A stretch of DNA of 41,696 nt from a virus. The position numbers and the translations under genes were made by a program. The DNA lies in IMG/VR virus record IMGVR_UViG_3300046804_002027, positions 1 to 41,696 of that record. The stretch is one strand, 5' to 3'. The notes beneath the pieces are model-generated. The model saw only the letters and a list, made by a program, of their open reading frames with translations, was not told the DNA's origin and made no database searches. Positions 2,358 to 39,845 of the stretch are shown in pieces. Numbering within the stretch: the first letter of the stretch is position 1; each line of letters begins with the position of its first letter.

Positions 2358-3827
2358 TTATTCTCCTTTGTTTTTTATTTTTTGTAAAAATTCAATATGA
2401 TCAATTCCATTATTGCTGGATAACTGCTTTATTGCTTTTACACTTTTATTATACTCCTCAATCTCAGTTATGTCAAGTTCAATACAATTTTTATGCATTT
2501 TGTTTCCAGCATAAAGAGACATCCAACTATAATTAGGCCATTTTAAAATTTCATAGTCTAAAACATCAAATATATTTTTATCTATAGTATTTGTATTCAT
2601 AATATTTTCAAAATCGTTTATTTTTTTTGGAGATGTATATTTACCATTAAATAATTTCCAAAATTCAGTATCAATTTTATTTGTTTTATAATGAAAATGT
2701 AAAAATGAGGCAAGGCTAATTTGGCTTAAAACAAAATTTTTATTATATAAATCTTGTATATTATTATCTATATTTTTAATATATTTAGGAAAAAAATAAA
2801 TTAAAAAATAATACATTTGGCTAATTGCTGTAGATATTGATGTGGCTTCTATTGGTTCAAAAAATGATGATGAAAGTCCATTTGAAAAACAATTTTTAAT
2901 CCAGGGTTGTTTTAAAAATCCTGGATCATAAGAAAAATTTCCAATAAACTGAATTTCATTTCCATATAGTTTAATTAATTCATCTTTTGCTTCCTGTTCT
3001 GTTATATAGTTTCCATCATAAACATATCCACATCCATACCTATGCTGTAGTGGTATTTTCCATGACCATCCATATTTCATTGCTGTTGCATCAGTATATG
3101 GATAATATTTATCATCACTTGGTAAAAATGCTGTTAAAGAATTTGTTGCTGGCAAAAGATGCGACATTGACTGCCATTCTGCGTTATAATGTTTTTTTAT
3201 TATAATTTTATTAAATCCGCTACAATCTACAACAAAGTCACAATCAATAGTAGAATTATCTAAAAGAATAATTTTAGATATATTTTCTTTATTATCTTTT
3301 TCTATATCTAAAACTTTTGCATCAATAATTTTAATATTATTTTTTAATGCAATGTCTTCTAAAAATAATACAAGTTTTTTTGCATCTATATGAAACCCAT
3401 AATTTATTGGATCACTTATATCTATTTTTTTATTTTTAACTAAATGATATAAATAGTTTATATCATTTAAATTTGTTTTTAAATTAACTGCTACTTTATA
3501 TAAATTTAAAACATTATTATCAATTGTATGATTTTTATCTTTATAAAAATCATAAAAACCGTGAAACCAACTAGAGTTTTCTAAATCCCAATTATTAAAC
3601 ATTACTCCATGTTTAATTGTTGCCCCTGTGTTTTCTATAAAATCTTCAATTGATATATCTAAATCTTTTAAAAAAGAATTAATTGCTGGAGTAAGTCCTT
3701 CTCCAGGTCCAAGCACACCTATTTCTTTACTTCTTATAACTGTTATATCTATATCTGGAAACTTCTTTTTAAATAATAAAGCAGATATACATCCTGCGGT
3801 TCCTCCACCTATAACAACTACGTTCAT
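2358..3827 (-). CDS. flavin-dependent (tryptophan-type) halogenase
   Basis: This 489-residue protein belongs to the FADH2-dependent halogenases, which use O2 and halide to halogenate aromatic substrates. The N-terminus has the FAD-binding GGGTAG motif (residues 7-12) and a GPGEGLTP segment. K72 in GATIKHG aligns with the conserved catalytic lysine that carries hypohalous acid. WSWKIP at 254-259 is the diagnostic WxWxIP motif. FFEPIEATS (322-330) aligns with the region carrying the active-site glutamate, although the serine usually following that glutamate is alanine here. The gene overlaps the preceding membrane-protein gene by ATGA and lies between primase and ssDNA-binding protein genes. 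It is visibly richer in A/T than its neighbours, hinting at separate acquisition. No flavin reductase is in the window, so FADH2 would come from the host. The substrate is unknown. Confidence 0.9.
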   Translation of the reverse strand: MNVVVIGGGTAGCISALLFKKKFPDIDITVIRSKEIGVLGPGEGLTPAINSFLKDLDISIEDFIENTGATIKHGVMFNNWDLENSSWFHGFYDFYKDKNHTIDNNVLNLYKVAVNLKTNLNDINYLYHLVKNKKIDISDPINYGFHIDAKKLVLFLEDIALKNNIKIIDAKVLDIEKDNKENISKIILLDNSTIDCDFVVDCSGFNKIIIKKHYNAEWQSMSHLLPATNSLTAFLPSDDKYYPYTDATAMKYGWSWKIPLQHRYGCGYVYDGNYITEQEAKDELIKLYGNEIQFIGNFSYDPGFLKQPWIKNCFSNGLSSSFFEPIEATSISTAISQMYYFLIYFFPKYIKNIDNNIQDLYNKNFVLSQISLASFLHFHYKTNKIDTEFWKLFNGKYTSPKKINDFENIMNTNTIDKNIFDVLDYEILKWPNYSWMSLYAGNKMHKNCIELDITEIEEYNKSVKAIKQLSSNNGIDHIEFLQKIKNKGE

Positions 3828-7738: not shown

Positions 7739-8172
7739 TTTGGAATTCCGATAATCAATACATTAACATCTACTGTTGCTGCACCACCTGCTGAAAATTT
7801 TGCTACTAAAGTTGCTTTTGATGTTGTAACATTATTAATAAATACAGAAACATTTTTTCCAGAATCAGTATTTCCTTTGTTCCAAGGTGTTGCAACAACA
7901 ATTGGAGGATACTTAAAACTAAAATCAATATCAAAAGATTTTTCTTCACCTGCTGTTACTGTTGCAGAATTTGCAATATTTTTTACTACGCCTAAGATTG
8001 ACGATTGTGATGTTGGTACAGAATTTGGTATTTCACCAACTCTTTCTATCTTAGTTATATTAGATGCTGTTGGAGAAACTTGTTTAACAAGATCATTAAT
8101 TGTTGTAACAATGCTATTAATATAAGCAACATCTAGTGGCTGGCCTCTTTGAGGGATTGGTAGTTGTGGCAT
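7735..8172 (-). CDS. minor tail / tail-tip protein with C-terminal beta-sandwich
   Basis: This 145-residue protein begins with PQLPIPQRGQPLDVAYINSI and a short helix (VTTINDLVKQV), a layout I associate with small tail-tip or fibre-associated proteins. The C-terminal 80 residues are strand-rich (EKSFDIDFSFKYPPIVVATPW, VSVFINNVTTSKATLVAKFS, VDVNVLIIGIPN) and resemble the H-type-lectin-like sandwich seen in phage receptor-binding proteins. It is the last structural gene before the replication module. There is no Shine-Dalgarno sequence; instead TGCTATAAT ends 8 bases before the ATG, suggesting a leaderless transcript starting at this gene. Receptor binding is inference. Confidence 0.65.
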   Translation of the reverse strand: MPQLPIPQRGQPLDVAYINSIVTTINDLVKQVSPTASNITKIERVGEIPNSVPTSQSSILGVVKNIANSATVTAGEEKSFDIDFSFKYPPIVVATPWNKGNTDSGKNVSVFINNVTTSKATLVAKFSAGGAATVDVNVLIIGIPN

Positions 8173-27671: not shown

Positions 27672-28793
27672 TTAGGAAGCAGCAATGTCCTTATAGGCAA
27701 TTGCATCTTCTTCTTCAATCTGGATACCGAAACGGACAAATACTGTATATTCGATAGTATCTTTCTTTGGTTGATACTGACGATTAACAGTGATGTCGCG
27801 CTGGAAGCCCCAGATGCGGTTTGCAGGGAATGTCAAGTCGACATAATCTGCTGGATAGTAAGGAACTTCCATTACGTCAACGCCGAGTACACGAGTGGTA
27901 CGGGCACCGCCAAATGTTTGTCCTTGACCATCAAGGTATGCTTGACGGTTTGCTTGAGTGCTACCAATTCGGCTTGAGAAAGCCTCAGAAATAGCATCGG
28001 CAAGTGTACCGTTGTTACGGACAATGCTTTGGAACACATCTGTACCAGCATAGAACTTAAGATTGTTCTTAAGGGCACGATACTTACGTGGCATTGCATT
28101 GATGATACCTTGCATAACTGGAGTTGTCCAGTTATCTGATGTAACCGCAGGAAGAACTGCATCGTGTGCATCTCCATTGGTTGTAATCATGTGGTGGAAA
28201 CCATCCATAATTGAAAGGAAGTTTCCTGTGGATCCATCTCCGTTGATAGCCAAGTCTTCGATATCATTACCGAATGCATTGGTCATCAAGCGAACAAGAT
28301 GGTCTTCAAGAGCAGCACCTTCAACATTGTCTTCAAGTGCTTCAGTAGTTACTTCCCAATCAAGACGAATCTTTTTTGTTGTAAGTTCTACCTTTGTAAA
28401 TGTGGCTCCAGTGTTTGTGTAAGCACCATCGCCTTGTGCAGCAGCGCGAAGTACACGCTCACCAACGTTAACTTTTTCAAGTTCCATTGTGTTGGCTCGC
28501 ATTGTGACTCTACGGCCATCCTTAGCGAGAACTGTAGCATCCCAGACATAATCAATAAATTGACGTGCCTGTTCAGGTCGTAGAATTCCACTAGCAGCAG
28601 ATCCCGAAGGATTTACAGCATTTGGTCCAGTTGTAACACCAAAAGCAGCAGTTGGGATATTACCCAAAGTGTCTGCGCCTGGTGAGGAAACTCCACCAAT
28701 GCCTCCAGAAGCGAAGCCACCATCTGCGTTAAATAACCCAGAATCTGATGCGCCACCACTACCTGGTTGGTTCTTTATAATTTCTTCCGACAT
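27672..28793 (-). CDS. major capsid protein, HK97 fold
   Basis: This 373-residue protein is the shell subunit. The first 75 residues are glycine-rich and disordered; from about 78 it shows a typical HK97-like sequence: ARQFIDYVWDATVLAKDGRRVTM, LTTKKIRLDWEVTTEALEDN, LEDHLVRLMTNAFGNDIEDLAINGDG, a P-domain and a C-terminal MEVPYYP/DITVNRQYQPKKDTIEYTVFVRFG stretch. ATG at 28793 has a perfect AGGAGG eight bases upstream; a GTG nine bases further upstream overlaps that Shine-Dalgarno sequence and is rejected. Codon choice is more GC-rich than most neighbours, fitting high expression. The gene follows the protease-scaffold gene and is closed by a UUCG-loop terminator. Confidence 0.93.
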   Translation of the reverse strand: MSEEIIKNQPGSGGASDSGLFNADGGFASGGIGGVSSPGADTLGNIPTAAFGVTTGPNAVNPSGSAASGILRPEQARQFIDYVWDATVLAKDGRRVTMRANTMELEKVNVGERVLRAAAQGDGAYTNTGATFTKVELTTKKIRLDWEVTTEALEDNVEGAALEDHLVRLMTNAFGNDIEDLAINGDGSTGNFLSIMDGFHHMITTNGDAHDAVLPAVTSDNWTTPVMQGIINAMPRKYRALKNNLKFYAGTDVFQSIVRNNGTLADAISEAFSSRIGSTQANRQAYLDGQGQTFGGARTTRVLGVDVMEVPYYPADYVDLTFPANRIWGFQRDITVNRQYQPKKDTIEYTVFVRFGIQIEEEDAIAYKDIAAS

Positions 28794-28819
28794 ATTGTTC
28801 ACCTCCTAGTGAATTTACC

Positions 28820-29362
28820 TTATCTGAATAGGTCGGTTGCGAGGAAACGACCGCCCCATAGGGATTTTTGAACCATTTCTGATTCCTGTACGATCTCGCC
28901 TAGATCGCCAGACTTGCGGAAAGCGGTGTCTTGCTCAACGGCATCGACTCTCTTTCCAAACTCATTGTAAGCATCCTTAACTCCCTTAACTTCAGAGGAG
29001 ACGGCTTGAATAGACTTACTTAGTTCAGCAACTTGACCTTGAAACATTTTAATTGTTTCCTCATTCAAGGACTTAATGGTTGCTGCTAGATCGCCAAAGG
29101 CATTTTCAAGAGTATTCTTGATCTCGGCAACTGCTTCAACTGCTGCAGCCTCTGCTGACTTAGTAATTTCTTCTGCTGGTGTTTCTACCGCAGTCTCAAC
29201 TACTTCTTCAGACTTTGCTACTTCAGTTTCAACAACTGCCTCAACTGCATTTTCTACTACTGTTTCAGCAACAGTTTCGTCAGCACTCTTGGTAACAGTG
29301 GTATCTGTTGCCTCTGGAGCGACCTCAACATTGTCAACAACTTTTGTTGTATCTTCTGTCAT
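28820..29362 (-). CDS. nested scaffold protein from internal in-frame start
   Basis: The second half of the protease gene appears to be expressed separately as a 180-residue scaffold. At 29362 an in-frame ATG (residue 255 of the long protein, MTEDTTK) is preceded by AAGGAGGT with eight bases between AGGAGG and the ATG, a stronger ribosome-binding site than that of the long protein. The predicted product is exactly the acidic coiled-coil scaffold region. This is the arrangement of lambda C/Nu3, where scaffold is made in excess from an in-frame start in the protease gene. The sequence shows the site; separate synthesis is inferred. Confidence 0.7.
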   Translation of the reverse strand: MTEDTTKVVDNVEVAPEATDTTVTKSADETVAETVVENAVEAVVETEVAKSEEVVETAVETPAEEITKSAEAAAVEAVAEIKNTLENAFGDLAATIKSLNEETIKMFQGQVAELSKSIQAVSSEVKGVKDAYNEFGKRVDAVEQDTAFRKSGDLGEIVQESEMVQKSLWGGRFLATDLFR

Positions 29363-30124
29363 AGGACTTACCTCCTTTTGAATCTCAGTTGTACTAATAC
29401 CTTTGGCACTATCAACTAAGAACTTTATCATGTCAACCTTGTCAGTATCTGACTTTTCAACAAAACCTATATTTTTCATTTGCTTTCCAGTTGTTGGGCT
29501 AATCTCAGAGTCATTTTCTGAAACCATTACTAAACCAGAATCTTTATCCCAAAATACATTTTCTACAACAACATCTAAAATTTCGCCTTTTACTACATCT
29601 ACTCCATCTACCTTTTCAATAGAAAGAATACTTGCAAATTGATTTGCTGGATTATCTACTAAAGATAGTTCAACTAAATCATATTCTTTAATAATTCTAA
29701 TTGGCTTATCTGCTTTTTCATCATATCCATCGTCCCACTTGTTCATTCTACCGCCAATTGAAAAACCTGTATATGTTCCATCTAATACTTTCTCCCACGC
29801 ATTTTGTGCGCCTTTTGAAACATATGCTGAAACAAAAACACCAGAATAAAATTTCTTTGTGTCTGGATCAAAATACTTATCTTCTTTAAATGAAACCATC
29901 TTTCCTACTGCAGATGGTTGATGCATTTCACGGATATTACCACGAAATTTTGAAAATGCTTTTAAACTAGCCTCAGTTAAAACAATGTCGTTTTGTCTAT
30001 CAAGATTATCAAGGGTCGCAAAACCTGATACAATTCTACGTTCCTTGTCTACTTTAGCAAAGGGCATTGATAGGCGAACATTTTCACCCTCTGTTGACCA
30101 ATGCGATTTAGAAATGATACTCAT
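28820..30124 (-). CDS. prohead protease fused to scaffold domain
   Basis: This 434-residue protein combines a serine protease with a scaffold. Residues about 15-165 have the prohead-protease pattern: H68 in REMHQPSAVGKM, S122 in YTGFSIGGRM, and E152 in KEYDLVELSLVDNPAN, as expected for the His-Ser-acid catalytic set of HK97-type and XkdF-type enzymes. From about residue 255 the protein becomes acidic, rich in A, E, T and V, with a long coiled-coil helix (AAAVEAVAEIKNTLENAF ... QVAELSKSIQAVSSEVKGV), as in scaffolds. An in-frame internal ATG with perfect Shine-Dalgarno lies exactly at this boundary. No good Shine-Dalgarno precedes the gene start; TGATATAAT ends nine bases before it. It lies between portal and major capsid genes. 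Confidence 0.9.
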   Translation of the reverse strand: MSIISKSHWSTEGENVRLSMPFAKVDKERRIVSGFATLDNLDRQNDIVLTEASLKAFSKFRGNIREMHQPSAVGKMVSFKEDKYFDPDTKKFYSGVFVSAYVSKGAQNAWEKVLDGTYTGFSIGGRMNKWDDGYDEKADKPIRIIKEYDLVELSLVDNPANQFASILSIEKVDGVDVVKGEILDVVVENVFWDKDSGLVMVSENDSEISPTTGKQMKNIGFVEKSDTDKVDMIKFLVDSAKGISTTEIQKEVSPMTEDTTKVVDNVEVAPEATDTTVTKSADETVAETVVENAVEAVVETEVAKSEEVVETAVETPAEEITKSAEAAAVEAVAEIKNTLENAFGDLAATIKSLNEETIKMFQGQVAELSKSIQAVSSEVKGVKDAYNEFGKRVDAVEQDTAFRKSGDLGEIVQESEMVQKSLWGGRFLATDLFR

Positions 30125-30133
30125 ATCACATCC

Positions 30134-30142
30134 ATTATATCA
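30134..30142 (-). promoter_or_regulatory. extended -10 promoter (leaderless candidate) upstream of protease-scaffold gene
   Basis: TGATATAAT ends nine bases before the ATG at 30124. It overlaps one arm of a nine-base perfect inverted repeat. Only a weak GGATG resembles a Shine-Dalgarno sequence. Confidence 0.55.
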
Positions 30143-30166
30143 ACATTTTTATTACTTTGTTGATAT
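30137..30166. repeat. 9-bp perfect inverted repeat overlapping promoter
   Basis: The arms ATATCAACA and TGTTGATAT (30137-30145 and 30158-30166) are separated by 12 bases. They fill most of the gap between portal and protease genes and overlap the extended -10. It could be an operator or an RNA hairpin; it has no T-tract and so is not a clear terminator. Confidence 0.75.
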
Positions 30167-31761
30167 TATGTGGATGACCTACCTTCCCCTTGTGGATTTC
30201 TTCCAGAAACTGTGGAAGGAGAGTCAGAGTTATTGTTTGTTCTTTCTGCGTCTCGTTGTCTATTGCCTGCAAGATTTGCTCTGGAATCTGTTGCTTGTCT
30301 TGGAGACATAACAAATGGAGTATCACCTTCTGGATGTTGTGGAAGACCTAACTTTTCACGAGCCTCGTTTGGCATCATAACTTGTGTCTTTACATATCTT
30401 TCAAGAATCTGAGACTGTGCAATTTCATCAGTAAGCGTAAGTTCGTTAAACTTGAGTTCAAGAATATCAGTTTTTTCACGAACAACCTTATTAATAAGTT
30501 TTTCAAGTTCTTGTTGTGCTGGTCTTGCGACTTGCTCTTTAAATGTACGGTCTTGTGCCAAAGCAGATGCAATTGATCCGCTATCAGAACCACCAAGTTT
30601 TGAAATTGGAACTTGATGTGCAACCAAAATATCATCACGATTTCTTACTCTATATTCATTAAACGATGCCTCTTGAATTCCATTCTCAATTGGTTCCATC
30701 TTAAACTCAACCTTGTTTGTATCAGAATCTCCTGGAAGTGGAATAAACAAAGTTCTATGTGATTGTGATTTTAGACCTGTTTGTAAAAATCTAAACATTT
30801 TATCTTCTGCATCAGCACTTAGTTTTGCACCCTTAAGTGTAATGATATATCTTGGAACCGCTTTGTTTTCAAAATAATCAATATTATATTGACCAGCAAG
30901 TTGATCTCCAATTAAAGATGGAAGTGCTGCAATAATATCTGGAATTCCATAATAAGTGTTTAGTGGAGAATACTGCTTAAAATGAATAATCTCGTTTGGT
31001 CTTGTATCAGTTGTAATTGGATTTGGATTTTTTGCTCCAAAGTTTCTAAAATAAATAACTGATGGGCCAATAATCTGAACATATCCATCCCTTAGTCTAC
31101 GAACACGCATTGTTGTTGAAGGTATGTGACCAATATATCCAATTTCTCCAGTAACAGTTCTGCCGATTTCCATATAACCATTACCAGTTGCCTGCATATC
31201 TACATAAATTTTTTCCATTGTTTTTGTAAAACTATCATCATCATTTAGGCTTTCTAGCCAATCACGCATTTCAATTTTTGCACGTTCAATACGCTTTCTA
31301 GCACGTCCTAATGCCATTTCATCTTCAACATTCTCAAGTTTAAGCATTGTTCGTGATCCAACTACAAAGTCATAACCAAGACCAACAACATTCTCTACCT
31401 TTGCATCAATAGCAGCATGGTTTGCAAAAGATGTATCATAATAGTTTGCTAATTCATAAAGATTGTATGGTGGTGTAATTACATCAAATAGTCCGTAACC
31501 ATTTCTAATGACAGCACCTGGATTAATTGCTTTTGATTTAGCATTGTCAATTCCTGTAGGGCTAGAGTTTGCACTGTTTAAATAATTTTGAGTTGTATCA
31601 ACTTTATTTAAATTTCTTGCAGTACGGCGTTTAAAGTTTTGATCTAAATTTACTAATCCTTTAAGTTCATCCCAAGATTTATTAAATGGATCATTTTTCT
31701 TAAACTCATCTGCTTTTTCTACTGCATCACTAATTGATGCTCCTACAATATAGTCTTCCAT
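30166..31761 (-). CDS. portal protein
   Basis: This 531-residue protein would form the dodecameric portal at the DNA-entry vertex. It has the sequence character of PBSX/SPP1-type portals: ITPPYNLYELANYYDTSF, WLESLNDDDSFTKTMEKIYVDMQATGNGYMEIGR, IIHFKQYSPLNTYYGIPDIIAALPSLIG, NIDYFENKAVPRYIITLKGAKLS, and the QEASFNEYRVRNRDDILVAHQVP segment before a helical GSIASALAQDRTFKEQVARPAQQELEKLI stem. The C-terminus is polar and disordered. ATG at 31761 overlaps the previous stop as TAATG. It lies directly upstream of the protease gene, the usual order. Confidence 0.92.
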   Translation of the reverse strand: MEDYIVGASISDAVEKADEFKKNDPFNKSWDELKGLVNLDQNFKRRTARNLNKVDTTQNYLNSANSSPTGIDNAKSKAINPGAVIRNGYGLFDVITPPYNLYELANYYDTSFANHAAIDAKVENVVGLGYDFVVGSRTMLKLENVEDEMALGRARKRIERAKIEMRDWLESLNDDDSFTKTMEKIYVDMQATGNGYMEIGRTVTGEIGYIGHIPSTTMRVRRLRDGYVQIIGPSVIYFRNFGAKNPNPITTDTRPNEIIHFKQYSPLNTYYGIPDIIAALPSLIGDQLAGQYNIDYFENKAVPRYIITLKGAKLSADAEDKMFRFLQTGLKSQSHRTLFIPLPGDSDTNKVEFKMEPIENGIQEASFNEYRVRNRDDILVAHQVPISKLGGSDSGSIASALAQDRTFKEQVARPAQQELEKLINKVVREKTDILELKFNELTLTDEIAQSQILERYVKTQVMMPNEAREKLGLPQHPEGDTPFVMSPRQATDSRANLAGNRQRDAERTNNNSDSPSTVSGRNPQGEGRSST

Positions 31762-39816: not shown

Positions 39817-39845
39817 ATTATATCAAATTTTTATTACGCTGACAA
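39817..39845 (-). promoter_or_regulatory. promoter of the fibronectin-type tail protein gene
   Basis: TTGTCA (39840-39845, inside the end of the fibre gene) and TATAAT (39817-39822) are separated by 17 bases, with TG one base before the -10. The short leader contains AAGGGG before the ATG at 39802. Confidence 0.65.

Follow-up and report, generated by a model that had tools for sequence, protein, structure and literature searches.

We propose that a single reading frame in this virus encodes two proteins: a protease-scaffold fusion translated from a near-leaderless start, and a 180-aa scaffold translated from an internal start that carries a Shine-Dalgarno (SD) sequence and made in excess. Judging from the sequence signals and their conservation, we put the probability of this reading at about 0.88. 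Both start signals are conserved at the nucleotide level, and the domain layout of the gene and its place in the gene order are established.

The virus record that we analysed, referred to here as the window, has a length of 41.7 kb and a G+C content of 33%. Its minus strand encodes, in order, a class II type ribonucleotide reductase, a 1199-aa protein, a small ORF, the portal protein, the protease, the major capsid protein and further structural proteins. The full-length protease-scaffold ORF (28820..30124, minus strand; 434 aa, beginning with an ATG that lacks an SD sequence) sits between the genes for the portal and the major capsid protein. The portal gene (30166..31761, minus strand; PF04860, E = 1.5e-31) lies immediately upstream. 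The major capsid protein (27672..28793, minus strand; PF05065) has 373 aa counted from the ATG at 28793, and this start is preceded by AGGAGG (28802..28807, minus strand; pairing energy −11.5 kcal/mol). Elsewhere, positions 2358-3827 of this phage record encode a 489-aa protein of the tryptophan-halogenase family (PF04820, E = 1.1e-91).

The protease ORF matches two Pfam families, PF04586 (E = 2.7e-6; 28 bits against a cut-off of 21) and PF14550 (E = 1.8e-5; 25.2 bits against 24), and is thus a member of the S78/XkdF proteases. In addition, phrog_9427, annotated as ‘head maturation protease’, matches the ORF over its whole length (E = 6.7e-116). The S78/XkdF-type domain takes up residues 4 to 170 approximately (29615..30115, minus strand), with profile matches that cover residues 22-167. 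Residues H68 and S122 (GN.R..H and GFSIGG blocks) are invariant among 45 relatives and appear to be the conserved catalytic-type His and Ser of this family. Residues 186-223 (29456..29569, minus strand) form a linker segment that is recognizable in the alignment by conserved M, N, G and E columns. This segment carries a CX(n)CxxC ribbon-like motif in the Streptomyces and Rhodococcus relatives; in the window clade the cysteines are missing and the surrounding residues are kept.

The nested ORF for the putative scaffold (28820..29362, minus strand; 180 aa) consists of an acidic stretch, a coiled coil and a conserved C-terminal tail, and it matches positions 270-448 of phrog_9427 (E = 1.2e-14). 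Residues 255-330 are strongly acidic, with a net charge of −17 across 76 aa. The coiled coil, at residues 336 to 408 approximately (28901..29119, minus strand), is predicted from a sequence profile compared with solved structures, and the domain border of the ORF is likewise a prediction. The original prediction had placed the internal ATG exactly where the protease ends and an acidic coiled-coil domain begins. The acidic tail does begin at residue 255, but the protease domain ends earlier, with a linker of about 85 residues in between. In a sequence search against solved structures, generic coiled coils were all that the tail matched, in unrelated proteins that included viral spikes; we rejected these matches as relatives because they reflect composition rather than homology. 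The Pfam matches of the tail (Perilipin, DUF1664 and others) fell under the cut-off and were rejected as well. The C-terminal tail itself, KSLWGGRFLATDLFR (28823..28867, minus strand), is conserved in the alignment; it reads WGG-FL in Streptomyces phages and is weaker in Rhodococcus phages. We propose that it may be the capsid-binding end of the scaffold.

The minus-strand sequence at the protease/tail junction is CAAAAGGAGGTAAGTCCTATGACAGAA. The internal SD sequence, AAGGAGGT (29370..29377, minus strand), stands out by its sequence, its energy and its conservation. It is complete in CAAAAGGAGGTAAGTCCT-ATG and lies 7 nt ahead of the in-frame ATG at 29362 (codon 255; 29360..29362, minus strand), which is an ATG or a GTG in the relatives; counted from AGGAGG, 8 nt lie in between. 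Its pairing with the anti-SD sequence in the 16S rRNA tail is predicted at −12.9 kcal/mol. This is the strongest SD of the starts examined in the window, where the next best reaches −12.1 and the major capsid start −11.5, and among the 231 internal in-frame ATG or GTG codons of the window genes the second-best site reaches only −7.3. AGGAGG occurs six times on the coding strand and precedes a start in three of these cases. The internal SD is not there by chance. These results bear out the claim that a perfect SD lies at the proper distance before an in-frame ATG.

The internal site is kept in all of the closest 80 IMG/VR loci, which are 64-100% identical. With cultured phages of Stanwilliamsviridae, Rhodococcus and Alicyclobacillus and a second viral scan, the set grew to 179 sequences, some of them incomplete, and dereplication of the complete genes at 90% nucleotide identity left 51. 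A site was counted as kept if the junction held an ATG or GTG with an SD energy of −8 or better. By this measure, a strong SD with an in-frame start codon is found in 50 of the 51 dereplicated relatives, which take in environmental actinophages, Stanwilliamsviridae of Streptomyces, Rhodococcus phages and one Alicyclobacillus phage. The 51st (locus L108, 538-1983) has AAGGAGG, with AGG in the place of the start codon, which is either a real loss or a sequencing error. The Rhodococcus phage Dorin, a later addition, keeps AAGGAG..GTG at −8.3; a GTG at its codon 307 is slightly better. The T5-like relatives of Vibrio and Serratia have neither the tail nor the internal site. No clear internal site was found in the GC-rich Haloarcula virus HHTV-2, and none at a protease/tail junction in the Gordonia phage ChisanaKitsune, which has a long capsid protein. 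Viral scans seeded with Trina and with the Alicyclobacillus phage yielded almost no new relatives. It had been suggested that the idea would fail if relatives kept the codons and lost the SD and ATG. We found the opposite: the SD and start persist, whereas the codons, the residues and the phase of the SD vary.

The start of the full-length gene is much weaker as a ribosome-binding site (−3.3 against −12.9 kcal/mol), as originally claimed. Instead, a −10 box, TATAAT (30134..30139, minus strand), occupies a conserved position and ends 9 nt ahead of the ATG at 30124. Over the whole AT-rich window TATAAT is not enriched (39 seen, 38.6 expected), so the box is convincing by its conserved position only. 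TANNNT lies 5-11 nt (6-10 in practice) upstream of the full-length start in 50 of the 51 relatives, and TATAAT is matched at five or more of its six positions in 41 sequences, against 1.2 expected at random positions in the same loci. The SD energy at this start has a median of −1.7 and reaches −8 or better in one relative alone, the phage of Alicyclobacillus (Firmicutes). In this phage the −10 box is absent, and each of the two starts is preceded by an SD (−10.8 and −11.6). Exactly six bases separate the box from the ATG in the Streptomyces phages, which is the classical leaderless geometry; the nine bases in the window predict a leader of about three. A transcript from TATAAT is thus predicted to be leaderless or near-leaderless, with a 5′ UTR of about 0-3 nt, and the description of the full gene as apparently leaderless is a fair one if the UTR is not taken to be exactly zero. 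The signals for a pairing of a leaderless with an SD start within one gene were also found in nearly all relatives: 50 of 51 combine TANNNT with the lack of a strong SD at the full-length start, and the internal SD is kept. TANNNT about 12 bp upstream of a start without an SD, the pattern seen here, is a mark of leaderless genes. Where such genes were detected, their share is about 19% of all genes for Actinobacteria and 4% for Firmicutes (PMC3160421); in M. tuberculosis, a quarter of the genes are leaderless (PMC3898074). WhiB, an actinobacterial family, is encoded in all three of the related, near-complete records longer than 100 kb that were searched, and this supports an actinobacterial host for the related viruses.

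In 47 of the 51 relatives there is an A-tract ahead of the −10 box. In the window, 30134-30155 and 39817-39835 (AAAAATGTTGATATAAT, AAAAATTTGATATAAT) share an A-tract about 5-8 nt upstream of TATAAT and are candidate phage promoters. The starts at 8172, 5300 and 32126 lie 5-8 nt downstream of a −10 box and lack an SD; they may be leaderless too.

What selection preserves at the internal site is the nucleotide sequence. The window clade and two further loci (L169 and L173) read the SD as AAG GAG G (Lys-Glu-Val/Ala/Glu/Asp), in phase 1 and with a spacing of 8 nt. In most others, including the Streptomyces and Rhodococcus phages, it is read as (A)GGA GGT (Gly-Gly), in phase 2 and with a spacing of 7 or 10 nt. 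Across all relatives the spacing is 7, 8 or 10 nt (11 in one) despite the shift in phase. Fourteen phages use a GTG start, a codon that makes up 10.3% of their valine codons. Because phase, residues and spacing change between clades and the rare GTG is kept, the sequences indicate that selection acts on the nucleotides and not on the peptide; it is the cross-clade change of phase that carries this argument. A test of synonymous conservation is weak when taken alone: among 23 window-clade sequences no other stretch of six codons in the gene is as conserved at synonymous positions as KEVSPM, but 23 of the 167 conserved columns are codon-invariant and part of the effect seems to come from generally slow codons. 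It could be argued that the conserved nucleotides are a mere by-product of a conserved junction peptide, since KE(V/A/E/D)xPM is conserved within the window clade. Between clades, however, the peptide reads KEVSPM, EGGAEQV, NEGGVIV, EGGQSNM, KGDFPQM or KKEEKTTV over AGGAGG or a near form of it in different phases. The change of phase already refutes the peptide-only explanation, and we give it next to no weight. SD-like hexamers within genes can also slow ribosomes, and the site does lie between two domains, so that AGGAGG might serve as a translational pause that helps the protease and tail domains to fold, with no internal product. We consider this very improbable. A pause requires no start codon, yet 50 of 51 sequences retain an ATG or GTG at the distance proper to an SD; GTG occurs there despite a preference for other valine codons; and the distance to this codon is held while the hexamer changes phase.

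Two further alternatives concern the fate and the function of the tail. Cleavage of the full-length protein near the junction might be the only source of the scaffold, and the internal SD would then be a relic. Cleavage of this kind is known from herpesvirus UL26, where the R site between protease and scaffold is cut (PMC12474303). A relic, however, would not stay near-perfect over the roughly 50% nucleotide divergence across which this SD persists, and proteolysis alone would yield protease and scaffold in a wasteful 1:1 ratio from a start without a strong SD. Proteolysis as the sole source is therefore hard to credit; proteolytic release and an internal start are nonetheless mutually compatible. 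It is also conceivable, if unlikely, that both products are made and that the tail is something other than a scaffold, such as an internal core or protease-regulating protein, given that it has no homologue of solved structure and resembles generic coiled coils only. Our assignment of a scaffold role is based on the gene order, the short capsid protein and the coiled-coil tail. The tail-coding part lies between the protease-coding part and the capsid gene, and no other scaffold candidate was found in the window from the portal to the capsid gene. With about 330-373 aa in the window and in Stanwilliamsviridae, the capsid protein is short; in the window its N-terminus is rich in Gly and Ser, and inspection of the sequence by eye revealed no long helical delta-type domain. 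In the T5-like relatives, the protease is a bare protein of 199-201 aa without a tail, and the capsid protein, at 465-469 aa, has an N-terminus that is charged and looks helical. A separate acidic ORF lies between the protease and capsid genes in other S78 phages (Summit, D4 and P3_CHA). Thus, the scaffold function seems to reside in one of three places, and here it would be in the tail of the protease.

Our model for the two-product gene is as follows. Start 1 (30124), directly behind the −10 box, would be used on transcripts with almost no leader and would give the full-length protease-scaffold without the help of an SD. Start 2 (29362), with its very strong SD, would give the 180-aa scaffold alone, and the two products would have a common C-terminus. 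We infer initiation at both sites and a product ratio in favour of the short form: very probably, the internal start yields the capsid scaffold alone in larger amounts than the protease. Because the start of the major capsid protein has a similarly strong SD, the free scaffold may be in excess at a level comparable to that protein. Through the tail that both products share, a small number of full-length molecules would join the assembly and carry the protease into the procapsid, and the protease would digest the scaffold at maturation. Transcripts from upstream promoters would likely yield scaffold and capsid protein with little protease, because start 1 on these transcripts lacks both a free 5′ end and an SD. 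The two modes of initiation may therefore act as a control, in which the protease requires a transcript that begins at its own start codon, and scaffold and capsid protein are made from every transcript that crosses the region; we hold this part of the model tentatively, at somewhat less than even odds. If it is true, the ratio of protease to scaffold and its timing would be set by the choice of promoter and by the capacity of the host for leaderless initiation, and the Firmicutes relative, where an SD replaces the leaderless start, would be a natural contrast.

Nesting of this kind is known from lambda C/Nu3, Mu I/Z and herpesvirus UL26/UL26.5, whereas the pairing of leaderless and SD starts and the lineage look new. 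In lambda, C/Nu3 is a single frame with an N-terminal protease, an internal in-frame scaffold start and a shared C-terminus, and gpC is a protease of the ClpP/S49 type. We know of no description of a leaderless start for lambda C. The window gene resembles C/Nu3 in its nested scaffold start and in the order portal-protease/scaffold-capsid. It differs in its protease, which is of the S78/XkdF type, and the Pfam and PHROG results for the ORF held no match to S49-type proteases or the lambda C family. The gene appears to work like C/Nu3, though none of these matches places it in the lambda C family. A passage in PMC8508860 cites Shaw and Murialdo (1980) for the nesting of C and Nu3. What marks a nested protease/scaffold gene of the lambda C/Nu3 and Mu I/Z type, a conserved in-frame internal start with a ribosome-binding site at the junction, is present here. 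In the Pseudomonas phage PaMx73, comparison with Mu led to the prediction of an internal in-frame scaffold start in the protease gene, gene 27, with the SD ACGAGGA before Val177 (PMC4378225). Mu I/Z and PaMx73 gene 27 share with the window gene an internal in-frame scaffold start with an SD inside the protease gene; they differ in their hosts and in their protease family, which was not matched here. The evidence in PaMx73 comes from comparison with Mu, whereas here it comes from 51 dereplicated sequences.

The S78 proteases and assemblin have a common protease fold, and the herpesvirus UL26.5 scaffold is made from a separate mRNA with an internal promoter. The signal for the short product therefore differs, an internal promoter in herpesviruses and an internal SD in the window. 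As in the window gene, a protease-scaffold fusion is accompanied by a separate scaffold that is identical to its C-terminal part: VP22a of HSV is the last 329 residues of UL26 (PMC12474303), and titles cited in that paper state that the C-terminal 25 residues are required for capsid assembly.

The capsid maturation proteases of Stanwilliamsviridae and of Rhodococcus clusters CB and CE are direct homologues that carry both signals and show no difference in kind from the window gene; those of Streptomyces phages are about 40-52% identical to the window protease. Strong internal SDs were also found in genes of the methanogen-virus type (L182:2270-3325, L184:1842-3062, L189 and L190). In psiM2, psiM100 and two environmental relatives, GAGGTGAT stands ahead of an in-frame ATG or GTG at the junction of an XkdF-like protease and a coil, and this is the best internal site of each of the four genes (−12.1 to −17.5). 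No relatives turned up when genomes were scanned with the psiM2 protein. The four sequences suggest that archaeal viruses, too, have S78/XkdF genes of the nested design. If we are correct, lambda-style nesting extends to the S78/XkdF proteases of actinophages and, probably, of methanogen viruses, in a layout like that of UL26/UL26.5, and a large family of actinobacterial viruses would have its own counterpart of the protease/scaffold gene pair of herpesviruses. It would also provide a natural system with leaderless and SD initiation inside one gene, in hosts (Streptomyces) that are open to existing tools.

In the annotated Stanwilliamsviridae and Rhodococcus records that we examined, the gene bears the name ‘capsid maturation protease’ or ‘head maturation protease’ and no other, and the nested product is unannotated; nesting in Stanwilliamsviridae was unreported in the open-access literature that we searched. 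A probable scaffold protein thus appears to be missing from the annotation of more than 100 Streptomyces phage records and of hundreds of environmental contigs. A separate matter of annotation concerns the protease family as a whole. S78/XkdF proteases are labelled ‘DNA methyltransferase’ in PHROGs (phrog_1530) and in several GenBank records, including those of Lactococcus and Pseudomonas phages, apparently a misannotation that has been propagated.
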